Of a stretch of 64,000 nucleotides of DNA, positions 5,663 to 41,714 are shown piece after piece (within the stretch, counting starts at the first letter, position 1; every line of letters starts with the position of its first letter). Source of the DNA: Pseudooceanicola aestuarii (GTDB lineage Bacteria > Pseudomonadota > Alphaproteobacteria > Rhodobacterales > Rhodobacteraceae); the NCBI RefSeq assembly GCF_010614805.1, contig NZ_JAAFZC010000001.1:372001-436000 (forward strand), in the 5' to 3' direction. The translations under genes were made by a program, and so were the position numbers. Under the pieces are notes generated by a model. It worked only from the letters and a program-made list of their open reading frames with translations. It had not been told where the DNA came from and made no database searches.

Positions 5663-6147
5663 GACCGCGATCTGCCAATTGCCTCCACCTTGCGGGGGGA
5701 TTGCGGACTGTGGGCAAGCCCCCCCTCTGGGCGCCCTTTGCCCGGGGCTGGGCGGGCCGGTTCTTCCTGTGCCCGCACCGCAGACAAGGCGGCACCCATC
5801 GCCCGCGAAACCCTGTCATGCGGGGTGTCCGGGCGCCGATGCGGGGCGGCGCGGGGTATCTTTTCGATAACGTCGCCCCCGCGGGCGCCTGCCGCAGCGC
5901 AGAAAGATCCGCAAAGACTGAAACATTCCCGCGCAGGAATGTTGCGATCCTCCCACGCGGGCGTGAGCTGCGCGGAAAACCGCCCATGTTTACAGGCCCG
6001 GACACGGTAATGGTTTTCACGCCGAATGACGTGCGCTGACGGCCGCGTGAATGACGGGCTCGTGAGTGGTTCGTCAGCGCCTCCGCCTTCTACCGTTTTG
6101 GCAGGTGCACCGCTGCTGGTGCCCCGACGAAACAAAGGGAGATGACC
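5663..6147 (+). promoter_or_regulatory. 485-bp leader of the bufferin-type operon
   Basis: This non-coding stretch follows the thrS terminator and leads into the exported precursor gene at 6148. Small open frames here lack ribosome sites and family resemblance. It contains a perfect 8-6-8 inverted repeat (5922-5943). I could not assign a -35/-10 pair with confidence, and no known riboswitch is evident. The length suggests control at a distance or an unrecognised small RNA. Confidence 0.45.
5922..5943. promoter_or_regulatory. Perfect 8-6-8 inverted repeat, candidate operator
   Basis: AACATTCC and GGAATGTT flank a 6-base CGCGCA spacer. It stands out as an AT-richer palindrome in a GC-rich leader, 205 bases before the precursor gene. 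No T-run follows, so a terminator is unlikely. A regulator binding site for the downstream operon is an inference from position only. Confidence 0.4.
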
Positions 6148-6474
6148 ATGTCCAATTCGACCAAGACCGCCGCCATCGCGGGTGCCTTCGCCGCTGCCCT
6201 CGCCGCCCAGGTGGCCACCCCCGCCCATGCCGCAGAGAACGTGAAATGCTACGGCGTGTCGCTGGCCGGAGAGAACGATTGCGCCGCCGGGCCGGGCACG
6301 ACCTGTGCCGGCACCTCCAAGGTGGATTACCAGGGCAACGCCTGGACACTCGTTCAGGACGGCACCTGCGAAAGCGACAGCCCGACCCTGGCCGACGGCA
6401 CCAGCATGATGCTGCCCGACGGCAAGATGGGCAGCCTGGCCGCGCTGGAACGCGACCTGCCGATGGAGGGCTGA
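6148..6474 (+). CDS. bufA1: Bufferin-type metallophore precursor (DUF2282, BufA1-like)
   Basis: A 108-residue exported peptide. Residues 1-28 form a signal peptide ending ATPAHA. The mature part carries four cysteines in the DUF2282 pattern: [22 protein letters not shown], and DGTC, with the conserved KVDYQGNAW between the last two. In the characterised BufA1 family these cysteines are modified by the DUF692 enzyme encoded next door and the product binds copper in the periplasm; this is family knowledge, not shown here. The start is the ATG at 6148, spaced seven bases from AAGGGA; an ATG two codons upstream is too close. It is the first gene of a four-gene operon. Confidence 0.88.
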
Positions 6475-6593
6475 CCGCCAGGCGGCGCGCCATTCCCCAT
6501 CCGGGCGCGCCGCACCCCGGCCCCGCCGCCATCCCACGGGCGCCGGGGCCACCCCGCTCACCGCTCACCGTCCACCCTGCCGGAGGTTCCCCG

Positions 6594-7445
6594 ATGTTCG
6601 ACACGCCCCAACCCTGTCTGCCCGCCCTGCCCGGCGTCGGATACAAGGCGCAGCACTACCTGGATATCCTGTCGAATCCCGCGCCCGTCGGCTGGCTGGA
6701 AATCCACGCCGAGAACTACATGGGCGATGGCGGGCGCCCGATCGCCCAACTGCGGCACCTGGCGGAGCGGTTCCCCATTTCGGTCCATGGCGTCGGCCTG
6801 TCGATCGGCGGCGAGGCACCTCTTGATCCCGACCACCTGGCCCGACTGAAACAACTGTGCGACTGGCTGGACCCGGCCAGCTTTTCCGAACATCTGGCCT
6901 GGTCGACCCATGAGGGGGCCTTTCTGAACGATCTCCTGCCGCTGCCTTATACCGCCGCCACGCTGACCCGCGTCGCCGATCATATCGACCAGGTGCAGGA
7001 AAACCTGGGCCGCCGGATGCTGCTGGAGAACCCGTCCTCCTACCTGGCCTTCGCCGACAGCGAGATGACAGAGACCGATTTCCTGCGCGAGATCACCCGA
7101 CGCACCGGCTGTGGCCTGTTGCTGGACGTGAACAACGTCTTCGTCTCGGCCACCAACCTTGGCCTGGACGCGCGCGATTACGTGGCCGATTTTCCGATGG
7201 ACGCCGTGGGCGAGATCCACCTTGGCGGCCATGACGAGGATGCCGACGATGCCGGCCGCCCCCTGTTGATCGACAGCCACGGGGCAGAGGTGGCAGACCC
7301 GGTCTGGAGCCTGCTGGACCTAGTGCTGGACCAGGCCGGACCACGCCCTGTGCTGATCGAATGGGACACCGACGTGCCCAGCTGGCCGGTCCTGGCGGCA
7401 GAGGCAAGGCGCGCCGAACGTGCCCTGGCGCGGATACCCGCATGA
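6594..7445 (+). CDS. bufB: DUF692 multinuclear non-heme iron oxidase (BufB/MbnB-like)
   Basis: A 283-residue TIM-barrel enzyme of the MNIO family, which oxidises cysteines of ribosomal peptides. Candidate metal ligands and conserved motifs are visible in order: GVGYK near the N-terminus, [48 protein letters not shown] and IEWDTD. The ATG at 6594 follows GGAGG. It lies 119 bases after the precursor gene and overlaps the next gene by four bases. Expected substrate: the four-cysteine precursor at 6148. The protein is cytoplasmic, so modification would occur before export. Confidence 0.92.
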
Positions 7446-8197
7446 CCAGCCCGCAAGCCGCGTTCCGCACGGCCGTGCTGAACCCGCAGGCGCCAGTTCC
7501 CGAGGGGCTGACCGATGGCCAGGGTGGCAGCGCCGGTCGCCGCTTTGCCGTGTATCGCAACAATGTCGCCGTGAGCCTGACCGACGCCCTGCTGGAAGGA
7601 TTTCCGGCCCTGACCGCGCTTCTGGGGCGCGACAACATGCGAACCCTGGCGGGGCGGTTCCTGCGGGATTGTCCGCCGACCACGCCGCTGATGTCGCGCT
7701 ACGGCACGGACCTGCCCGAATATCTGCGCGATTTCGCGCCGCTGGCGCATGTGGGGTCGCTGCCCGACCTGGCGCGGCTGGAACTGGCGCTGCGCCAATC
7801 CTACCACGCCGCCGACCACAGCCCCGCCGATCCCGACCGGCTGGGCGCGCTGGACGGCGCCGACCTGGCACGCGCGCGGCTGCGGCTGGCGCCGTCCTTG
7901 CGGCTGATCCGGTCCGATTGGCCGGTGCATGACATCCGCCTGCACGCGCTGGACCCGGCGCATCCCGCCCCCGCACGCCAGGCCCAGGACATCGTGGTCC
8001 TGCGCCCCGCCTACGACCCTCAGCCCCGGCTGCTACCGCCCGGTGGCGGCGCCTTCCTGGCCGCTGTTCTGGACGGTGTCCCCCTTGCCACCGCGCTGGA
8101 AACCGCCATGGCCGAGGCACCGGATTTCGACCTGACCGCCCTGCTGTCCCTGCTGCTGGGCGCCGGCGCCCTGACCGATGTGGAGATCACGCCATGA
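7442..8197 (+). CDS. bufC: DUF2063 partner protein (BufC/HvfC-like)
   Basis: A 251-residue protein of the DUF2063 family that accompanies DUF692 enzymes. Its N-terminal part has the family signature [18 protein letters not shown] (about residues 33-50), followed by FPALTALLG and [11 protein letters not shown]. The family is thought to recruit the peptide to the oxidase, as MbnC does with MbnB. The start ATG overlaps the bufB stop (ATGA), and the end overlaps the DoxX gene in the same way, which indicates translational coupling and a fixed stoichiometry with the oxidase. Confidence 0.9.
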
Positions 8198-8781
8198 CCG
8201 ACCCGACGCAACCGCTCTCCCGGATGGAACCGATCCTGCCCCTGCTGGCACGGTTCCTGTTTGCCGCTGTCTTGCTGCCCTATTACTGGGCCTCCGCCAT
8301 GACCAAGACGGGCGCGGGGCTGCTGGGCGTCTTCTCGCCCTCGCTGGGGGCCTATGCACAGATCTTTCCCCGCCAGATGGAAGCCGCGGGCTACGATGCC
8401 AGCCAGCTGGGTCTGCTACAATGGGCGGTGGTGGTGGCCGGCACTCTGGCCGAATTCATCCTGCCCGCCCTGATCGTGCTGGGTCTGCTGACGCGGCTGT
8501 CGGCGTTGGCAATGATCGGCTTTGTCACCGTGCAGACCCTGACGGATCTGTATGGTCACGGTGGCATCGCCCACGCCGAGACGCTGGGCGCGTGGTTCGA
8601 CCGGGCGCCCGACGGGCTGATCCTGGATCAACGCGGGCTGTGGTTTCTGCTGCTGATGCTGCTGGTGGTCAAGGGCGGCGGCGCCCTGTCGCTGGACGCG
8701 CTGCTGTTCAGAAATGCGGTTTCGGCTCATCCGGCTGACCGGCGGCCAGCGCCAGCAGCGCCGCGACCACGCAGAAGCTGA
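8194..8781 (+). CDS. DoxX family inner-membrane protein
   Basis: A 195-residue membrane protein with about four hydrophobic segments and a DoxX-type first helix (LARFLFAAVLLPYYWASAMTK). DoxX proteins are frequent last genes of bufferin-type operons; their role there may be redox or membrane related and is not settled. It starts inside the bufC stop codon (ATGA). Its last 74 bases overlap the convergent gene that ends at 8708, so its C-terminal tail HPADRRPAPAAPRPRRS is read opposite another coding region. Confidence 0.85.
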   Translation: MTDPTQPLSRMEPILPLLARFLFAAVLLPYYWASAMTKTGAGLLGVFSPSLGAYAQIFPRQMEAAGYDASQLGLLQWAVVVAGTLAEFILPALIVLGLLTRLSALAMIGFVTVQTLTDLYGHGGIAHAETLGAWFDRAPDGLILDQRGLWFLLLMLLVVKGGGALSLDALLFRNAVSAHPADRRPAPAAPRPRRS

Positions 8782-9076
8782 TCGGAAAGATGGTGAACAG
8801 GCCCAGGCCATAGCCCATGTACATGCCCCCTGCACCCGCCAGCATCAGGATGCCGCCCCAAAGCGCCCGGACCTTGGCCATACCCGCACCCGCCAGCGCC
8901 AGGATCGGTGACACCACTCCGGCGGCCCGCACGAGCGGAACATTTTCAACCTGTTGAAACAGGCCGTCAACCTCGCCAACGGCATTCACCGCCTCGGTGT
9001 AGCCATAGCTGAGGAACCCGACGACCAGCCCCATCAGCCCCCCGATCACGCCCAATATCAGTGCGGCGTTGCGCAT
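8708..9076 (-). CDS. Small four-helix membrane protein, unknown
   Basis: A 122-residue protein not recognised beyond its membrane nature. Four hydrophobic segments are visible: ALILGVIGGLMGLVVGFLSY at the N-terminus, VVSPILALAGAGM, LWGGILMLAGAGGMYMGYGL, and a C-terminal SFCVVAALLALAAG. The start ATG at 9076 follows GGAGGGG; the open frame extends upstream but would overlap the neighbour without a better start. The gene converges on the DoxX gene with a 74-base overlap. The ArsC-like gene upstream ends only 14 bases away, so the two may be cotranscribed. Confidence 0.75.
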   Translation of the reverse strand: MRNAALILGVIGGLMGLVVGFLSYGYTEAVNAVGEVDGLFQQVENVPLVRAAGVVSPILALAGAGMAKVRALWGGILMLAGAGGMYMGYGLGLFTIFPISFCVVAALLALAAGQPDEPKPHF

Positions 9077-9090
9077 GTGCCCCTCCGTCG

Positions 9091-9438
9091 TCAAATGTCC
9101 GCTGATGCCGTCAGGGCGGTGCGGGTGTCGTCTGTCCACCCCAGATAGAGATCGTCGCCCCGAATGATAAGGGGGCGTTTCATCAGCTTGGGGTATTCCG
9201 CCAACAAGTCCAGCGGTGGCCGCGCGCGCTCCTCGGCGTCCAGCCCGCGCCATGTCGTCGACCGCGCATTGAGCAGCGCCGCGCCGAACCGCTTTTCCGC
9301 CCGGGCCAGCAATGCGGCCGGCACCCCCTGCGCCTGCACATCTACAAGTTCAGCGTTTTCAATCGCTTTCACGCAGGCGCGCGTCGTGTCACAGGTTTTC
9401 AGCCCGTAGACGAGAATAGGGACAGAGCCGGTGGTCAT
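9091..9438 (-). CDS. ArsC/Spx-family reductase-like protein (YffB-like)
   Basis: A 115-residue thioredoxin-fold protein. VYGLKTCDTTRACVKAIE gives the family's N-terminal CDTTRAC pattern, and RPLIIRGDDLYLGW matches the RP(L/I) motif of arsenate reductase-related proteins. It lacks neighbours for arsenic resistance, so true arsenate reduction is doubtful; the YffB/Spx-like group is more likely. It reads leftwards from the shared intergenic region with cspA and could form a two-gene unit with the membrane protein downstream. Confidence 0.85.
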   Translation of the reverse strand: MTTGSVPILVYGLKTCDTTRACVKAIENAELVDVQAQGVPAALLARAEKRFGAALLNARSTTWRGLDAEERARPPLDLLAEYPKLMKRPLIIRGDDLYLGWTDDTRTALTASADI

Positions 9439-26067: not shown

Positions 26068-26751
26068 ATGGCATTGACCCGACGTACCCCCTTGGCTCTC
26101 CGCACCGCCTGCTGCCGCCTGCTGGCCGGCCTGGCCGCGGCCGCATTGTTTCAGGCATCCCCGCCCGCGCAGGCCCATCCTCATATCTTCATCGAGACGG
26201 CGCTGACCCTCCAGGTGGATACCGATGGGCAACTGACCGGGGTCGAGGTGTCCTGGGCCTACGACCAGATGTATTCGATGCTGGTGCTGGACGACATGGC
26301 GCTGGATCCCGAATATGATGGCGTGCTGACCGGCGCGGAGGAGGCCCGCTTGTCCGGCTTCGACCTGAACTGGATCGAAGGGTTCGAGGGCGATCTGTAC
26401 CTCGCCCGGGACGGTGCCCCCGTGGCGCTGGAAGCGCCGCAGAACCGGGGGGCGCAATTCGAGGACGGGCGCGTCGTGTCGCGCCATTTCCGCGCCTTGA
26501 CCACACCGGTTCCAGCGGCGGGCCTGACGGTCAAGGCCTATGACCCGTCCTTCTACACCGCCTATGACCTGGGCGGTGGCGTCACCGTCACCGGCCCTTG
26601 CCGCGCCGCGATCACCAAGCCGGTCCGGACCGATAGCTACGTCGCGCTGGCCGAGAAGATGGCAGAGCTGCCGCGCGACGCCGATGACGTGCCGCAAGTC
26701 GGCGAAACCTTCGCCGAAACGATCACCCTGACCTGCGGAGGCCGCACATGA
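26068..26751 (+). CDS. DUF1007 family protein
   Basis: A 227-residue protein with an N-terminal signal segment (LLAGLAAAALFQASPPAQA) and the family opening AHPHIFIETALTLQVD. DUF1007 proteins are exported and commonly paired with NicO-type metal transporters, perhaps supplying or trapping the metal ion; this role is inferred from gene pairing. Two cysteines (GPCRAA and LTCGG) flank the last part. The end overlaps the transporter gene by four bases (ATGA), indicating a coupled pair. Confidence 0.88.
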   Translation: MALTRRTPLALRTACCRLLAGLAAAALFQASPPAQAHPHIFIETALTLQVDTDGQLTGVEVSWAYDQMYSMLVLDDMALDPEYDGVLTGAEEARLSGFDLNWIEGFEGDLYLARDGAPVALEAPQNRGAQFEDGRVVSRHFRALTTPVPAAGLTVKAYDPSFYTAYDLGGGVTVTGPCRAAITKPVRTDSYVALAEKMAELPRDADDVPQVGETFAETITLTCGGRT

Positions 26752-27797
26752 CCCTGCTTCGCCAGACCGAGGATCGCACGGCACCCCGTCCGCTGTGGTT
26801 CCGCCTTTTGCCGGTGATCCCGCTGTTGGGGGCGCTGTGGATCGCCTGGCTGCTGTGGGGCCAGGGCGGCATGGCGCGGATCTCCGTCTGGGCGGCGGAG
26901 GGCCAGCGCGATGCGCAGAACGCCATGGCCGGCACGTTGCGGGCGTTGCGCGCGGGCGATCCGGCGGCGCTGAGTGCGCTGTTGGGCCTGTGCTTTACCT
27001 ATGGGTTCTTTCACGCGGCGGGGCCGGGCCATGGCAAGATCCTGATCGGCGGCTACGGGCTGGCGCGCCGGGTCAGCGCGTTGCGGCTGGCGGCGCTGGC
27101 GCTGGTCTCCAGCCTGGCGCAATCGGCCAGCGCGGTGATCCTGGTGCTGGCCGGGGTCTCGGCGCTGAATCTGTCGCGGGAGGCGCTGGTGGGCGTGACC
27201 GAGGATTGGCTGGCCCCGGCGTCCTATGGTGCGATCGCGCTGATCGGGCTTTGGCTGGCGTTTCGGGGCCTGCGGCGCCTGTGGCGCAGCCTGCGTCCGC
27301 AGGGCATGTCCCCTGGCGGTACCTCCCCTGGGGCCGGCGCCCGGGATCAAGTCCATGCGCATGACCTTGGCACCGATCCCGCTCACGGCCACACGCACGA
27401 CCACGGAGAGAACGGGACCTGCGAATGCGGTCACCGGCATGGCCCCACGGTCGAAGAGGCCGAGAACCTGCGATCCTTTCGCGAGGCTGTGCTGCTGATC
27501 GGGGCGATTGCCATGCGCCCCTGTACCGGTGCGTTGTTCCTGATGGTGCTGACTTGGCGGATGGACATCCTGGGAGCGGGAATCGCGGGCACCTTTGCCA
27601 TCGGGCTGGGCGTTGCGATGTTTACCGTCACGATCGCGCTGTTGTCGGTGTTCCTGCGCGCGGGAACGGCAGAGCGCCTTTCGGCCGCCCTGCCCGGAGC
27701 CCTCCGGCCCCGTCGAACACTCGCCCTGTTGGAATTGTTGGCCGGGGCGCTGATTGCCATCGCCTCCGGCCAACTTGTCCTTCAGGCGCTTGCCTGA
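26748..27797 (+). CDS. Nickel/cobalt transporter, NicO family
   Basis: A 349-residue membrane protein of the NicO/RcnA group. The family motif HAAGPGHGKILIGGYGLAR is about residue 90, and GAIAMRPCTGALFLMVLTWRMD in the second half. Between them a His- and Cys-rich loop (HAHDLGTDPAHGHTHDHGENGTCECGHRHG, in parts) about residues 202-231 is likely a metal-binding sensor or buffer. Direction of transport is not certain: RcnA exports, but DUF1007-linked forms may import. Ends three bases before a convergent gene. Confidence 0.88.
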   Translation: MTLLRQTEDRTAPRPLWFRLLPVIPLLGALWIAWLLWGQGGMARISVWAAEGQRDAQNAMAGTLRALRAGDPAALSALLGLCFTYGFFHAAGPGHGKILIGGYGLARRVSALRLAALALVSSLAQSASAVILVLAGVSALNLSREALVGVTEDWLAPASYGAIALIGLWLAFRGLRRLWRSLRPQGMSPGGTSPGAGARDQVHAHDLGTDPAHGHTHDHGENGTCECGHRHGPTVEEAENLRSFREAVLLIGAIAMRPCTGALFLMVLTWRMDILGAGIAGTFAIGLGVAMFTVTIALLSVFLRAGTAERLSAALPGALRPRRTLALLELLAGALIAIASGQLVLQALA

Positions 27798-32348: not shown

Positions 32349-33479
32349 ATGATGACGATGCCCCCCTTTGACACGCTTTATGCCGCGCTCTGCGCCCGCG
32401 ATGCCGCCTTCGAGGGGCGGGCCTGGGTCGGCGTGACCTCCACCGGGATATTCTGCCGCCTGACCTGCCCGGCGCGCAAACCCAAGGCGGCGAATTGTCG
32501 GTTCCTTCCTTCGGTCGCGCGCTGCATGGAGGAGGGGTACCGCCCCTGCAAACGCTGCCACCCGCTGCGTCCGGCCGGGACCGCCGATCCGTTGATCGCC
32601 AAGCTGGTCACGGCGTTGGAAGCCACGCCGGACCGACGCTGGACCGAGCGCTGCGTGGCGGCGATGGGGCATGACCCTTCGACCGTGCGGCGGGTGTTCA
32701 AACGCCACTACGGGATGACCTTTCTGGACATGGCGCGCCAGACCCGCCTGCGTCGCGGCTTCGAGGCGCTGAAGGCCGGGGAGCGTGTCATCGACGCCCA
32801 GCTGGAGGCCGGGTTTGACAGCGCCAGCGGATTTCGGACAGCCTTTGCGCGGCTATTGGGCGTAGCGCCGGGGCATTTGACCGGACAGGAATTGCTGCGC
32901 GCCGACTGGATCGCCACCCCGCTGGGGCCGATGATCGCCGTGGCCGATCAGCGCAGCCTGCACCTGCTGGAGTTCCTTGACCGCAAAGCCCTGCCGGCCG
33001 AGCTGAAGAAGCTGCGCGCGGCGGCGCGTGGTTCCCTGGGCCTGGGCCGCCTGCCGCCCACCGACTGGATCGCCACGGAGCTGGAGCGCTATTTCGCCGG
33101 ACACCTTGGCCGGTTCGAGACGCCGGTGACCTTGCACGGCACGCCCTTTGCCCGGCAGGTCTGGCAGGCCTTGCGTGAGATCCCCGCCGGGGAGACGCGC
33201 AGCTATTCCCGCATCGCCCGACAGATCGGCCGGCCCGAGGCGGTGCGCGCCGTCGCCCGTGCCAACGGAACCAACCAGCTGGCGTTGATCGTGCCCTGCC
33301 ACCGGGTGATCGGCTCCGACGGATCGCTGACCGGCTATGGCGGCGGGCTGTGGCGCAAGGAACGGCTGATCGCGCTGGAACGCCAGTCCGGGGCCGGGGG
33401 CGGTGTCGAAACCGACAGCACGATCAGCAGCGGTACAGAAGATCAGGCGACGCCAAACCCCGACGTCGCCGCGCAATAG
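32349..33479 (+). CDS. ada: Ada-type methyltransferase/transcriptional activator, three-domain
   Basis: A 376-residue protein with the complete Ada layout. Residues 1-80 form the zinc domain with four cysteines (FCRLTCPAR and PCKRC), which takes methyl groups from phosphotriesters and switches the protein on as an activator. An AraC-type HTH follows (TVRRVFKRHYGMTFLDMARQ). The C-terminal domain repairs O6-methylguanine with the acceptor in LIVPCHRVIGSDG. The start region has three in-frame ATGs (32349, 32352, 32358) without a strong ribosome site. A second, shorter Ada-like gene is at 40824. Confidence 0.93.
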   Translation: MMTMPPFDTLYAALCARDAAFEGRAWVGVTSTGIFCRLTCPARKPKAANCRFLPSVARCMEEGYRPCKRCHPLRPAGTADPLIAKLVTALEATPDRRWTERCVAAMGHDPSTVRRVFKRHYGMTFLDMARQTRLRRGFEALKAGERVIDAQLEAGFDSASGFRTAFARLLGVAPGHLTGQELLRADWIATPLGPMIAVADQRSLHLLEFLDRKALPAELKKLRAAARGSLGLGRLPPTDWIATELERYFAGHLGRFETPVTLHGTPFARQVWQALREIPAGETRSYSRIARQIGRPEAVRAVARANGTNQLALIVPCHRVIGSDGSLTGYGGGLWRKERLIALERQSGAGGGVETDSTISSGTEDQATPNPDVAAQ

Positions 33480-40823: not shown

Positions 40824-41714
40824 CTACCCCGCCTCGGCCCGCGCGCTTTCCCAGGCCAGCATGGCGCGTTTCACCGGCAGGCCCCAGTGATAGCCCCCCA
40901 GCGCGCCGCCCTTGCGCAGGGCCCGGTGGCAGGGAATCAGCCAGCTGACCGGGTTTCGCCCCACCGCCGTGCCGACCGCCCGCTGGGCGCGGGGATGGCC
41001 GATGGCGCGGGCGATCTCGGAATAGGTGGTGACATGGCCGCTGGGCACGGTCAGCAAGGCCTCCCAGACCTTGATCTGGAAGGGCGCGCCCAACAGGTGC
41101 AACCGCGTCTCCCCCCGCTGGGCCATCGCGGCGGCGACCCATGGGGCGATGGCGTCAGGATCTTCGGTCAGCGTGGCGCGGGGCCAGCGCGCGGCCATGT
41201 CGGCCATCGCCGCATCGCGCCCCATTTCGGCGGTGAAGGCCAGACCGCAAAGGCCGCGAACGGACGCCATGGCCAGCACCTCCCCGAAGGGGCTGTCAAA
41301 CCAGCCCCAGCGCAGCGTCAGCCCCGCCCCGCCTCGGGCGTATTCGCCGGGGCTCATCGCCTCCCAGCGCAGAAACAGATCATGCAGGCGCCCGGACCCG
41401 GACAGCCCGGCGCCCAGCGCCGCTTCCACCGTGGAGAACCGCGCCGACAACAGCCGCCGCGCCTGTCCCAACGCCAGGTATTGTTGATAGCGTTTCGGCG
41501 AAATCCCGGCCCAGGCGGAAAAGATGCGCTGAAAATGCGCCGGGCTCATCCCCATGCGGGCGGCGAGGTCTTCAAGCGACAGCGGCGTGTCGGCCGCGTC
41601 GATCTCTTCGATGGCGCGGCGGATGACGTGGTAGTGGTAGCCGTCCTCCGACGTGGCCGACGCCAGGGCGGGCGCGTTGTGCAGGGGGGCGGCTGGTGCG
41701 GGTGCGGCGGGCAT
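40824..41714 (-). CDS. AraC-methyltransferase protein, Ada-like without zinc domain
   Basis: A 296-residue protein with an AraC-type HTH (SLEDLAARMGMSPAHFQRIFSAWAGISP, in parts) fused to an O6-methylguanine-DNA methyltransferase domain with the acceptor in SWLIPCHRALRKGG. The N-terminal phosphotriester domain of Ada is missing, so it cannot be switched by methylphosphotriesters in the usual way. ATG at 41714 follows AAAGGAGA. It diverges from nth, a base-excision repair gene, with 122 bases between. The full-length Ada is at 32349. Confidence 0.92.
   Translation of the reverse strand: MPAAPAPAAPLHNAPALASATSEDGYHYHVIRRAIEEIDAADTPLSLEDLAARMGMSPAHFQRIFSAWAGISPKRYQQYLALGQARRLLSARFSTVEAALGAGLSGSGRLHDLFLRWEAMSPGEYARGGAGLTLRWGWFDSPFGEVLAMASVRGLCGLAFTAEMGRDAAMADMAARWPRATLTEDPDAIAPWVAAAMAQRGETRLHLLGAPFQIKVWEALLTVPSGHVTTYSEIARAIGHPRAQRAVGTAVGRNPVSWLIPCHRALRKGGALGGYHWGLPVKRAMLAWESARAEAG

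Follow-up and report, generated by a model that had tools for sequence, protein, structure and literature searches.

Anatomy of the operon

The stretch of the Pseudooceanicola aestuarii genome analysed here (64,000 nt, hereafter the window) carries an operon for a bufferin, a member of a large family of peptides that bind copper. Its four genes, bufA, bufB, bufC and doxX, lie in a row on the + strand (Table 1), and their Pfam and NCBIfam families agree with the assignment made in an earlier note on this DNA; the ATGA overlaps that the note had placed at both junctions were seen at 7442-7445 (bufB/bufC) and 8194-8197 (bufC/doxX). For bufA, the ATG at 6148 has a GGGAG at the normal distance while the ATG at 6142 has none, and 119 nt separate the end of this gene from bufB. 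At its 3' end, doxX (8194-8781) runs into a reading frame of the opposite strand that converges on it (8711-9253). Precursor, MNIO, DUF2063 and DoxX genes make up the Buf1 core cluster as described in PMC12452194, and the operon is a complete, intact and ordinary Buf1 (DUF2282) bufferin operon, of a known and common kind; what is new at the locus is a conserved double dyad and a missing sigma-F switch.

Table 1. Features of the bufferin operon and its upstream region, in window coordinates
Feature	Position	Strand	Description and evidence
29-bp double dyad TGACGGCCGCGTGAATGACGGGCTCGTGA	6037..6065	+	Proposed operator of the bufferin operon; 19/19 specified bases
-10-like hexamer TACCGT	6091..6096	+	25 bp behind the dyad
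bufA	6148..6474	+	Buf1 precursor, 108 aa; PF10048 (DUF2282) E 1.9e-21, 76.2 vs 22.4 bits
GC-rich hairpin	6482..6513	+	10-bp stem; in the bufA-bufB gap
bufB	6594..7445	+	Multinuclear non-haem iron oxidase (MNIO); PF05114 (MbnB_TglH_ChrH) E 2.2e-105; NCBIfam MNIO_BufB 380.7 vs 310
bufC	7442..8197	+	DUF2063 partner protein; PF09836 E 1.9e-22
doxX	8194..8781	+	Membrane protein; PF07681 (DoxX) E 7.3e-5, 23.8 bits vs cut-off 23.6 (marginal)

The earlier note had also reported that no copper exporter or copper regulator gene is nearby, and by name none was found in a Pfam scan (E ≤ 1e-5) of 53 other window proteins, all but three of the 55 other called ORFs being covered and several of the scanned proteins giving no Pfam match. 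Elsewhere in the genome there are copper-ATPase-type genes, four of them above the cut-off, and a genome search returned one MNIO gene and one DUF2282 gene, with no second copy of either. The window contains no Rfam family at the gathering threshold and no tRNA. About 17 kb from the operon, a DUF1007 gene is followed without a gap by a gene for a NicO-type nickel transporter (26068-27794), and two Ada-type proteins, each with an AraC-like HTH and a 6-O-methylguanine DNA methyltransferase domain, are encoded about 7 kb apart at 32349-33476 and 40827-41714.

A set of 120 loci was made up of the window, 39 loci obtained with DUF2282 and 80 obtained with BufB, so that each group holds its search gene by construction; nine of the loci repeat a genome of the genus. 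In this set, matches at E ≤ 1e-3 were obtained for bufB in 120, for bufC in 120 (the match in L047 is doubtful, being in the same frame as bufB), for bufA in 119 and for doxX in 113. DUF2282 is present in 85 of 120 family genomes and in 19 of the 21 other genomes of the genus. Four loci (L037, L089, L113 and L121) carry a tandem pair of bufA copies ahead of bufB. On the other hand, the operon looks broken in one sister genome, G015 (L259; G015:C1:2207000-2220000, 6108-9193), which keeps sigF-nrsF, bufC and doxX; no DUF2282/bufA match was found at this locus, and the BufB match covers 219 of 283 residues and overlaps sigF.

The precursor and its maturation proteins

The four cysteines of the precursor, which the earlier note had recognised as a DUF2282 pattern, are Cys34, Cys45, Cys53 and Cys74. 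Conservation of this pattern in homologues had been named beforehand as a test of that reading, and none of the 107 distinct precursors, taken from the 118 loci where a precursor could be read, departs from four cysteines; 103 of them have the spacing 11-8-21. As for which cysteines are modified, the note had called this unknown for the species; the matter is less open than that, since the published Buf1 scheme puts the modification on the central cysteines and a disulfide between the outer pair (Antoine et al. 2025, PMC12452194), although here the assignment goes by analogy. On that analogy, thiooxazoles are to be expected at Cys45 and Cys53, and a disulfide between Cys34 and Cys74. Read by eye, the N-terminus has the pattern of a Sec-type signal peptide, with K6, an alanine-rich stretch and AHA at 26-28, and the signal is probably cut after AHA, at residue 28. 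With the mature peptide taken to start at residue 29, its calculated average mass is 8132.9 Da in the unmodified, reduced form; two thiooxazoles would bring this to about 8124.9 Da, and an added disulfide to about 8122.8 Da. BufA has no NCBIfam match above the cut-off (only BufA2, at 23 vs 60); some of its relatives carry the source name 'BufA1 family periplasmic bufferin-type metallophore'. An AlphaFold model of BufA was set aside because its pLDDT is only 64.4.

The precursor ends in a tail with the motif GSLxxLxRDLP, and the more general form G[SAG][LMP]xx[LQ]xRDxP occurs in 95 of the 107 distinct precursors. The 12 without it comprise nine from outside the family, some with near matches, and three variant tails (L041, L081 and L114). 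Over 70 aligned sequences, G95 and D103 do not vary and S96, L97, L100, R102 and P105 hardly do, while the linker between the last cysteine and the motif varies in length (offset 9 to 24). A short motif on such a loose tether suggests a docking site, perhaps for BufC. The signal peptide, not the tail, is named as a part of precursor recognition in the account of PMC12452194 seen by us. For a precursor with a signal peptide in place of the usual leader, this conserved C-terminal motif is a candidate for the feature that the maturases recognise.

BufB could be aligned to three MNIOs of solved structure, 3bww, TglH and MbnB. Nine of its residues, the putative iron ligands and base (H65, H100, E145, D178, H209, D227, H229, E256 and D258), align with 3bww, and each has a conservation of 1.00 (rounded) among 120 sequences, duplicates counted. 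The RRE domain expected of a Buf1 DUF2063 partner was not recovered for BufC by a profile search against PDB sequences. The AlphaFold model of DoxX (pLDDT 87.8) has long predicted helices at 14-38, 74-96, 100-121 and 144-160, and R20, K38, E87, R101, D118, H122, D145, R147 and D168 are invariant in 68 sequences. No solved relative of DoxX was found by sequence profile, and Foldseek gave no match at E ≤ 0.001. A role of DoxX as a thiol oxidoreductase is disfavoured because most homologues (96 of 111, the window's included) have no cysteine at all.

Downstream of bufA, a stem of at least 8 bp is predicted within 75 nt of the gene in 19 of 20 genus loci and in 65 of 68 other loci, with a z below -2 against dinucleotide shuffles in 14 of the 20 and 55 of the 68. 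Few of 31 examples then run into T runs, which makes a full terminator less likely; judged from its sequence, the hairpin would more readily be a message-stability or partial-stop element.

A missing sigma-F switch

In Caulobacter vibrioides, CC3254-CC3257 encode DUF2282, DUF692, DUF2063 and DoxX proteins in the same order as in the window and are described as being under sigma-F, with the promoter GTAACC-N16-CGAA (PMC3511200); the window, by contrast, has neither an adjoining sigF-nrsF nor such a promoter. In Pseudooceanicola the usual order is thrS, divergent sigF-nrsF and then bufABC-doxX. Both sigF and nrsF were found by tblastn (two sigF and two nrsF protein queries) at 18 of 20 genus loci with the operon, the two loci without them being the window and G012. 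The 18 loci resemble the window in the operon itself and mostly in the neighbours, with thrS upstream and ArsC-like and DUF2177 genes downstream, and differ from it in their divergent sigF-nrsF, in a strict sigma-F promoter (GTAAC-N-CGAA; 17 of 18, L063 failing) and in having a single dyad only.

The same queries gave no hit to sigF or nrsF in the 64-kb window, where the best matches to GTAACC-N16-CGAA have three mismatches (at -147 and -42) and the strict pattern is absent. Genome-wide, NrsF is below the cut-off in P. aestuarii (20.8 vs 26.8 bits; genome 99.95% complete) and above it in 19 of 22 genus genomes, the other two without it being G012 (77% complete) and G020 (66%). The absence of the regulator beside the operon is unusual for the genus. 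G012 looks like a second case, though its genome is incomplete. The sigF-nrsF cassette is not confined to Pseudooceanicola, since two loci from other genera of the same family (L036 and L040) carry it, with a sigma-F promoter, beside bufA.

A gyrB tree places the window among sigF genomes, beside its nearest kin by this gene, G004 (98/98), which bears sigF, and places G012 beside G009 (98/99). Single-gene trees disagree: in the thrS tree the window stands beside L059, and the operon tree leaves its place open. Considering the gyrB placement, the simplest explanation would be a loss of sigF-nrsF, or an exchange of the control region, in the window's lineage.

A conserved double dyad upstream of bufA

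Just upstream of the region originally noted (6148..8781) lies a double dyad of the pattern TSACG-N4-CGTGA-N2-SACG-N4-CGTGA. The motif came from a dyad count on 87 upstream regions outside the genus, the window not among them, which yielded GTGA/CACG pairs at fixed spacing. It was scored on 80 loci beyond the genus, 11 of them in same-family genomes and the other 69 in named relatives without an individual check of family. At least 16 of 19 specified bases are reached by 69 of the 80, with 11 below 16 and nine below 15, the nine including L036 and L040, where sigF-nrsF is present; these counts are not independent, because most of the loci had also served to define the motif. By comparison, no control piece out of 400 scores above 14, and no dinucleotide shuffle of the window's upstream region out of 2000 above 15. 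None of nine loci outside the family has the double dyad (14 at most).

The window itself and whole-genome searches provide the better test, with the proviso that the genomes searched may repeat species among the loci. In the P. aestuarii genome, the bufA site is the only place within two mismatches of the pattern, and at three mismatches there are 14 further places versus one for a backward control pattern. A site with no more than two mismatches occurs in 82 of 120 family genomes, and 13 match the backward control (by eye). Among the matches listed for these genomes, all 14 exact sites precede a same-strand DUF2282 match (by eye), and of 21 one-mismatch sites 13 lie upstream of DUF2282, one lies between bufA and bufB and seven lie elsewhere. 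The site between bufA and bufB is at about 1500-1529 of L185, in G108.

Alignment of 70 loci revealed a TAnnnT-like box at +54 (+54, +55 and +59 favour T/A, A and T) but no -35 that stands out, which is what an activator site would lead one to expect. As a single dyad, TSACG-N4-CGTGA occurs at 14 distinct places in the P. aestuarii genome, two of them being the bufA pair and five being intergenic by an ORF heuristic, and reading the surroundings of the three intergenic sites away from bufA revealed no obvious copper genes. Five P-type ATPase loci contain a single copy of the looser TSAC-N6-GTGA between them; it lies in L158, where the ATPase itself scores under the cut-off. One perfect dyad, TCAC-N6-GTGA, is retained at each of the 18 sigF-bearing loci of the genus and at L040, but not at L036. 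A literature search (open-licence literature, not full texts, with one query unspecific) found no published description of the double dyad.

It seems unlikely to us that the 29-bp dyad is a carry-over or a DNA or RNA structure with no protein operator in it, the operon being constitutive or read through from thrS. Such a reading could draw on the lack of an identified regulator and on G004 having both sigF-nrsF and a sigma-F promoter, but the dyad has invariant bases, fixed spacing and a fixed distance to the -10-like box across the 70 loci, its exact sites listed in the 120 family genomes all precede DUF2282, and thrS ends about 575 nt upstream of the operon, which speaks against read-through.

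Relation to known systems and proposed mechanism

The genes, their homology and conservation, the element and the absence of sigF-nrsF, as observed above, fit an overall explanation that we hold with considerable confidence: a Buf1 operon with thiooxazole chemistry, export and copper binding, driven by an activator at the dyad instead of by sigma-F. BufA would be made with a Sec signal peptide. By analogy with published relatives, the BufB iron oxidase together with BufC would convert Cys45 and Cys53 to 5-thiooxazoles in the cytosol; the peptide would then be exported by Sec, with the signal cut near residue 28, and would bind excess copper in the periplasm as a mature peptide of about 80 residues in which Cys34 and Cys74 form a disulfide. 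Going by the anatomy of the locus, the double dyad next to the -35 region would drive expression via a putative activator, not via sigma-F as in sister species, and the hairpin would probably let the cell keep more bufA than bufBC message.

Related systems share parts of this arrangement. Buf2, oxazolin and fontiphorin (captophorins) likewise combine an MNIO with a DUF2063 partner, according to PMC12668002, which describes the oxazolin and fontiphorin products as 5-thiooxazole and gives a mass change of 4 Da per modified cysteine for fontiphorin, as well as a band near 305 nm (Gadgil et al. 2025). Their precursors differ from the window's DUF2282 in having 6 or 12 cysteines (Buf2, as given in PMC12452194) or EGKCG repeats. 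The Legionella and Cupriavidus GIG operons have the four gene families of the window and are described as metal-responsive (PMC5413113), while their hosts and promoter are different and it is the response to gold and copper that was studied in them. For Legionella, the same source discusses a metal regulator without a name and some role of RpoS. Among the papers cited here, no dedicated regulator of bufferin operons other than sigma-F is given a name.

These comparisons bear on whether copper is the main target. We consider it quite improbable that the system is of bufferin type with another metal or stress as its main target: the control region of the window does differ from the sigma-F type, Caulobacter sigma-F and DUF2282 operons respond to chromium and cadmium in the account of PMC3511200, GIG operons respond to gold as well as copper (PMC5413113) and other metals are discussed by Antoine et al. 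(PMC12452194), but the core sequence of the window belongs to the same Buf1 family as that of Caulobacter, for which the latter source states copper chelation and improved growth in excess copper. A reading in which the operon has lost its sigma-F switch and is now decaying in P. aestuarii is very improbable, given four full-length genes, conserved active-site residues and an exact upstream element, in spite of NrsF falling below the cut-off genome-wide, the absence of sigF and nrsF from the window and the state of the locus in sister genome G015.

For the history of an activator at the dyad, we put forward a reading whose chances we rate as evenly balanced. The candidate regulator of the double dyad would be the older bufferin switch in Rhodobacterales relatives, acting almost only on this operon; Pseudooceanicola, together with at least two other same-family genomes, would have added sigma-F/NrsF on top of the older switch and in most cases kept one dyad; and the window's lineage, having lost sigF-nrsF or exchanged its control region, would now depend on the older switch. 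Most sister species have their bufferin operon under sigma-F; the window presents one that lacks such control. The dyad offers a bait for the missing regulator, and since two states of one promoter occur in one genus, the regulation is directly testable.
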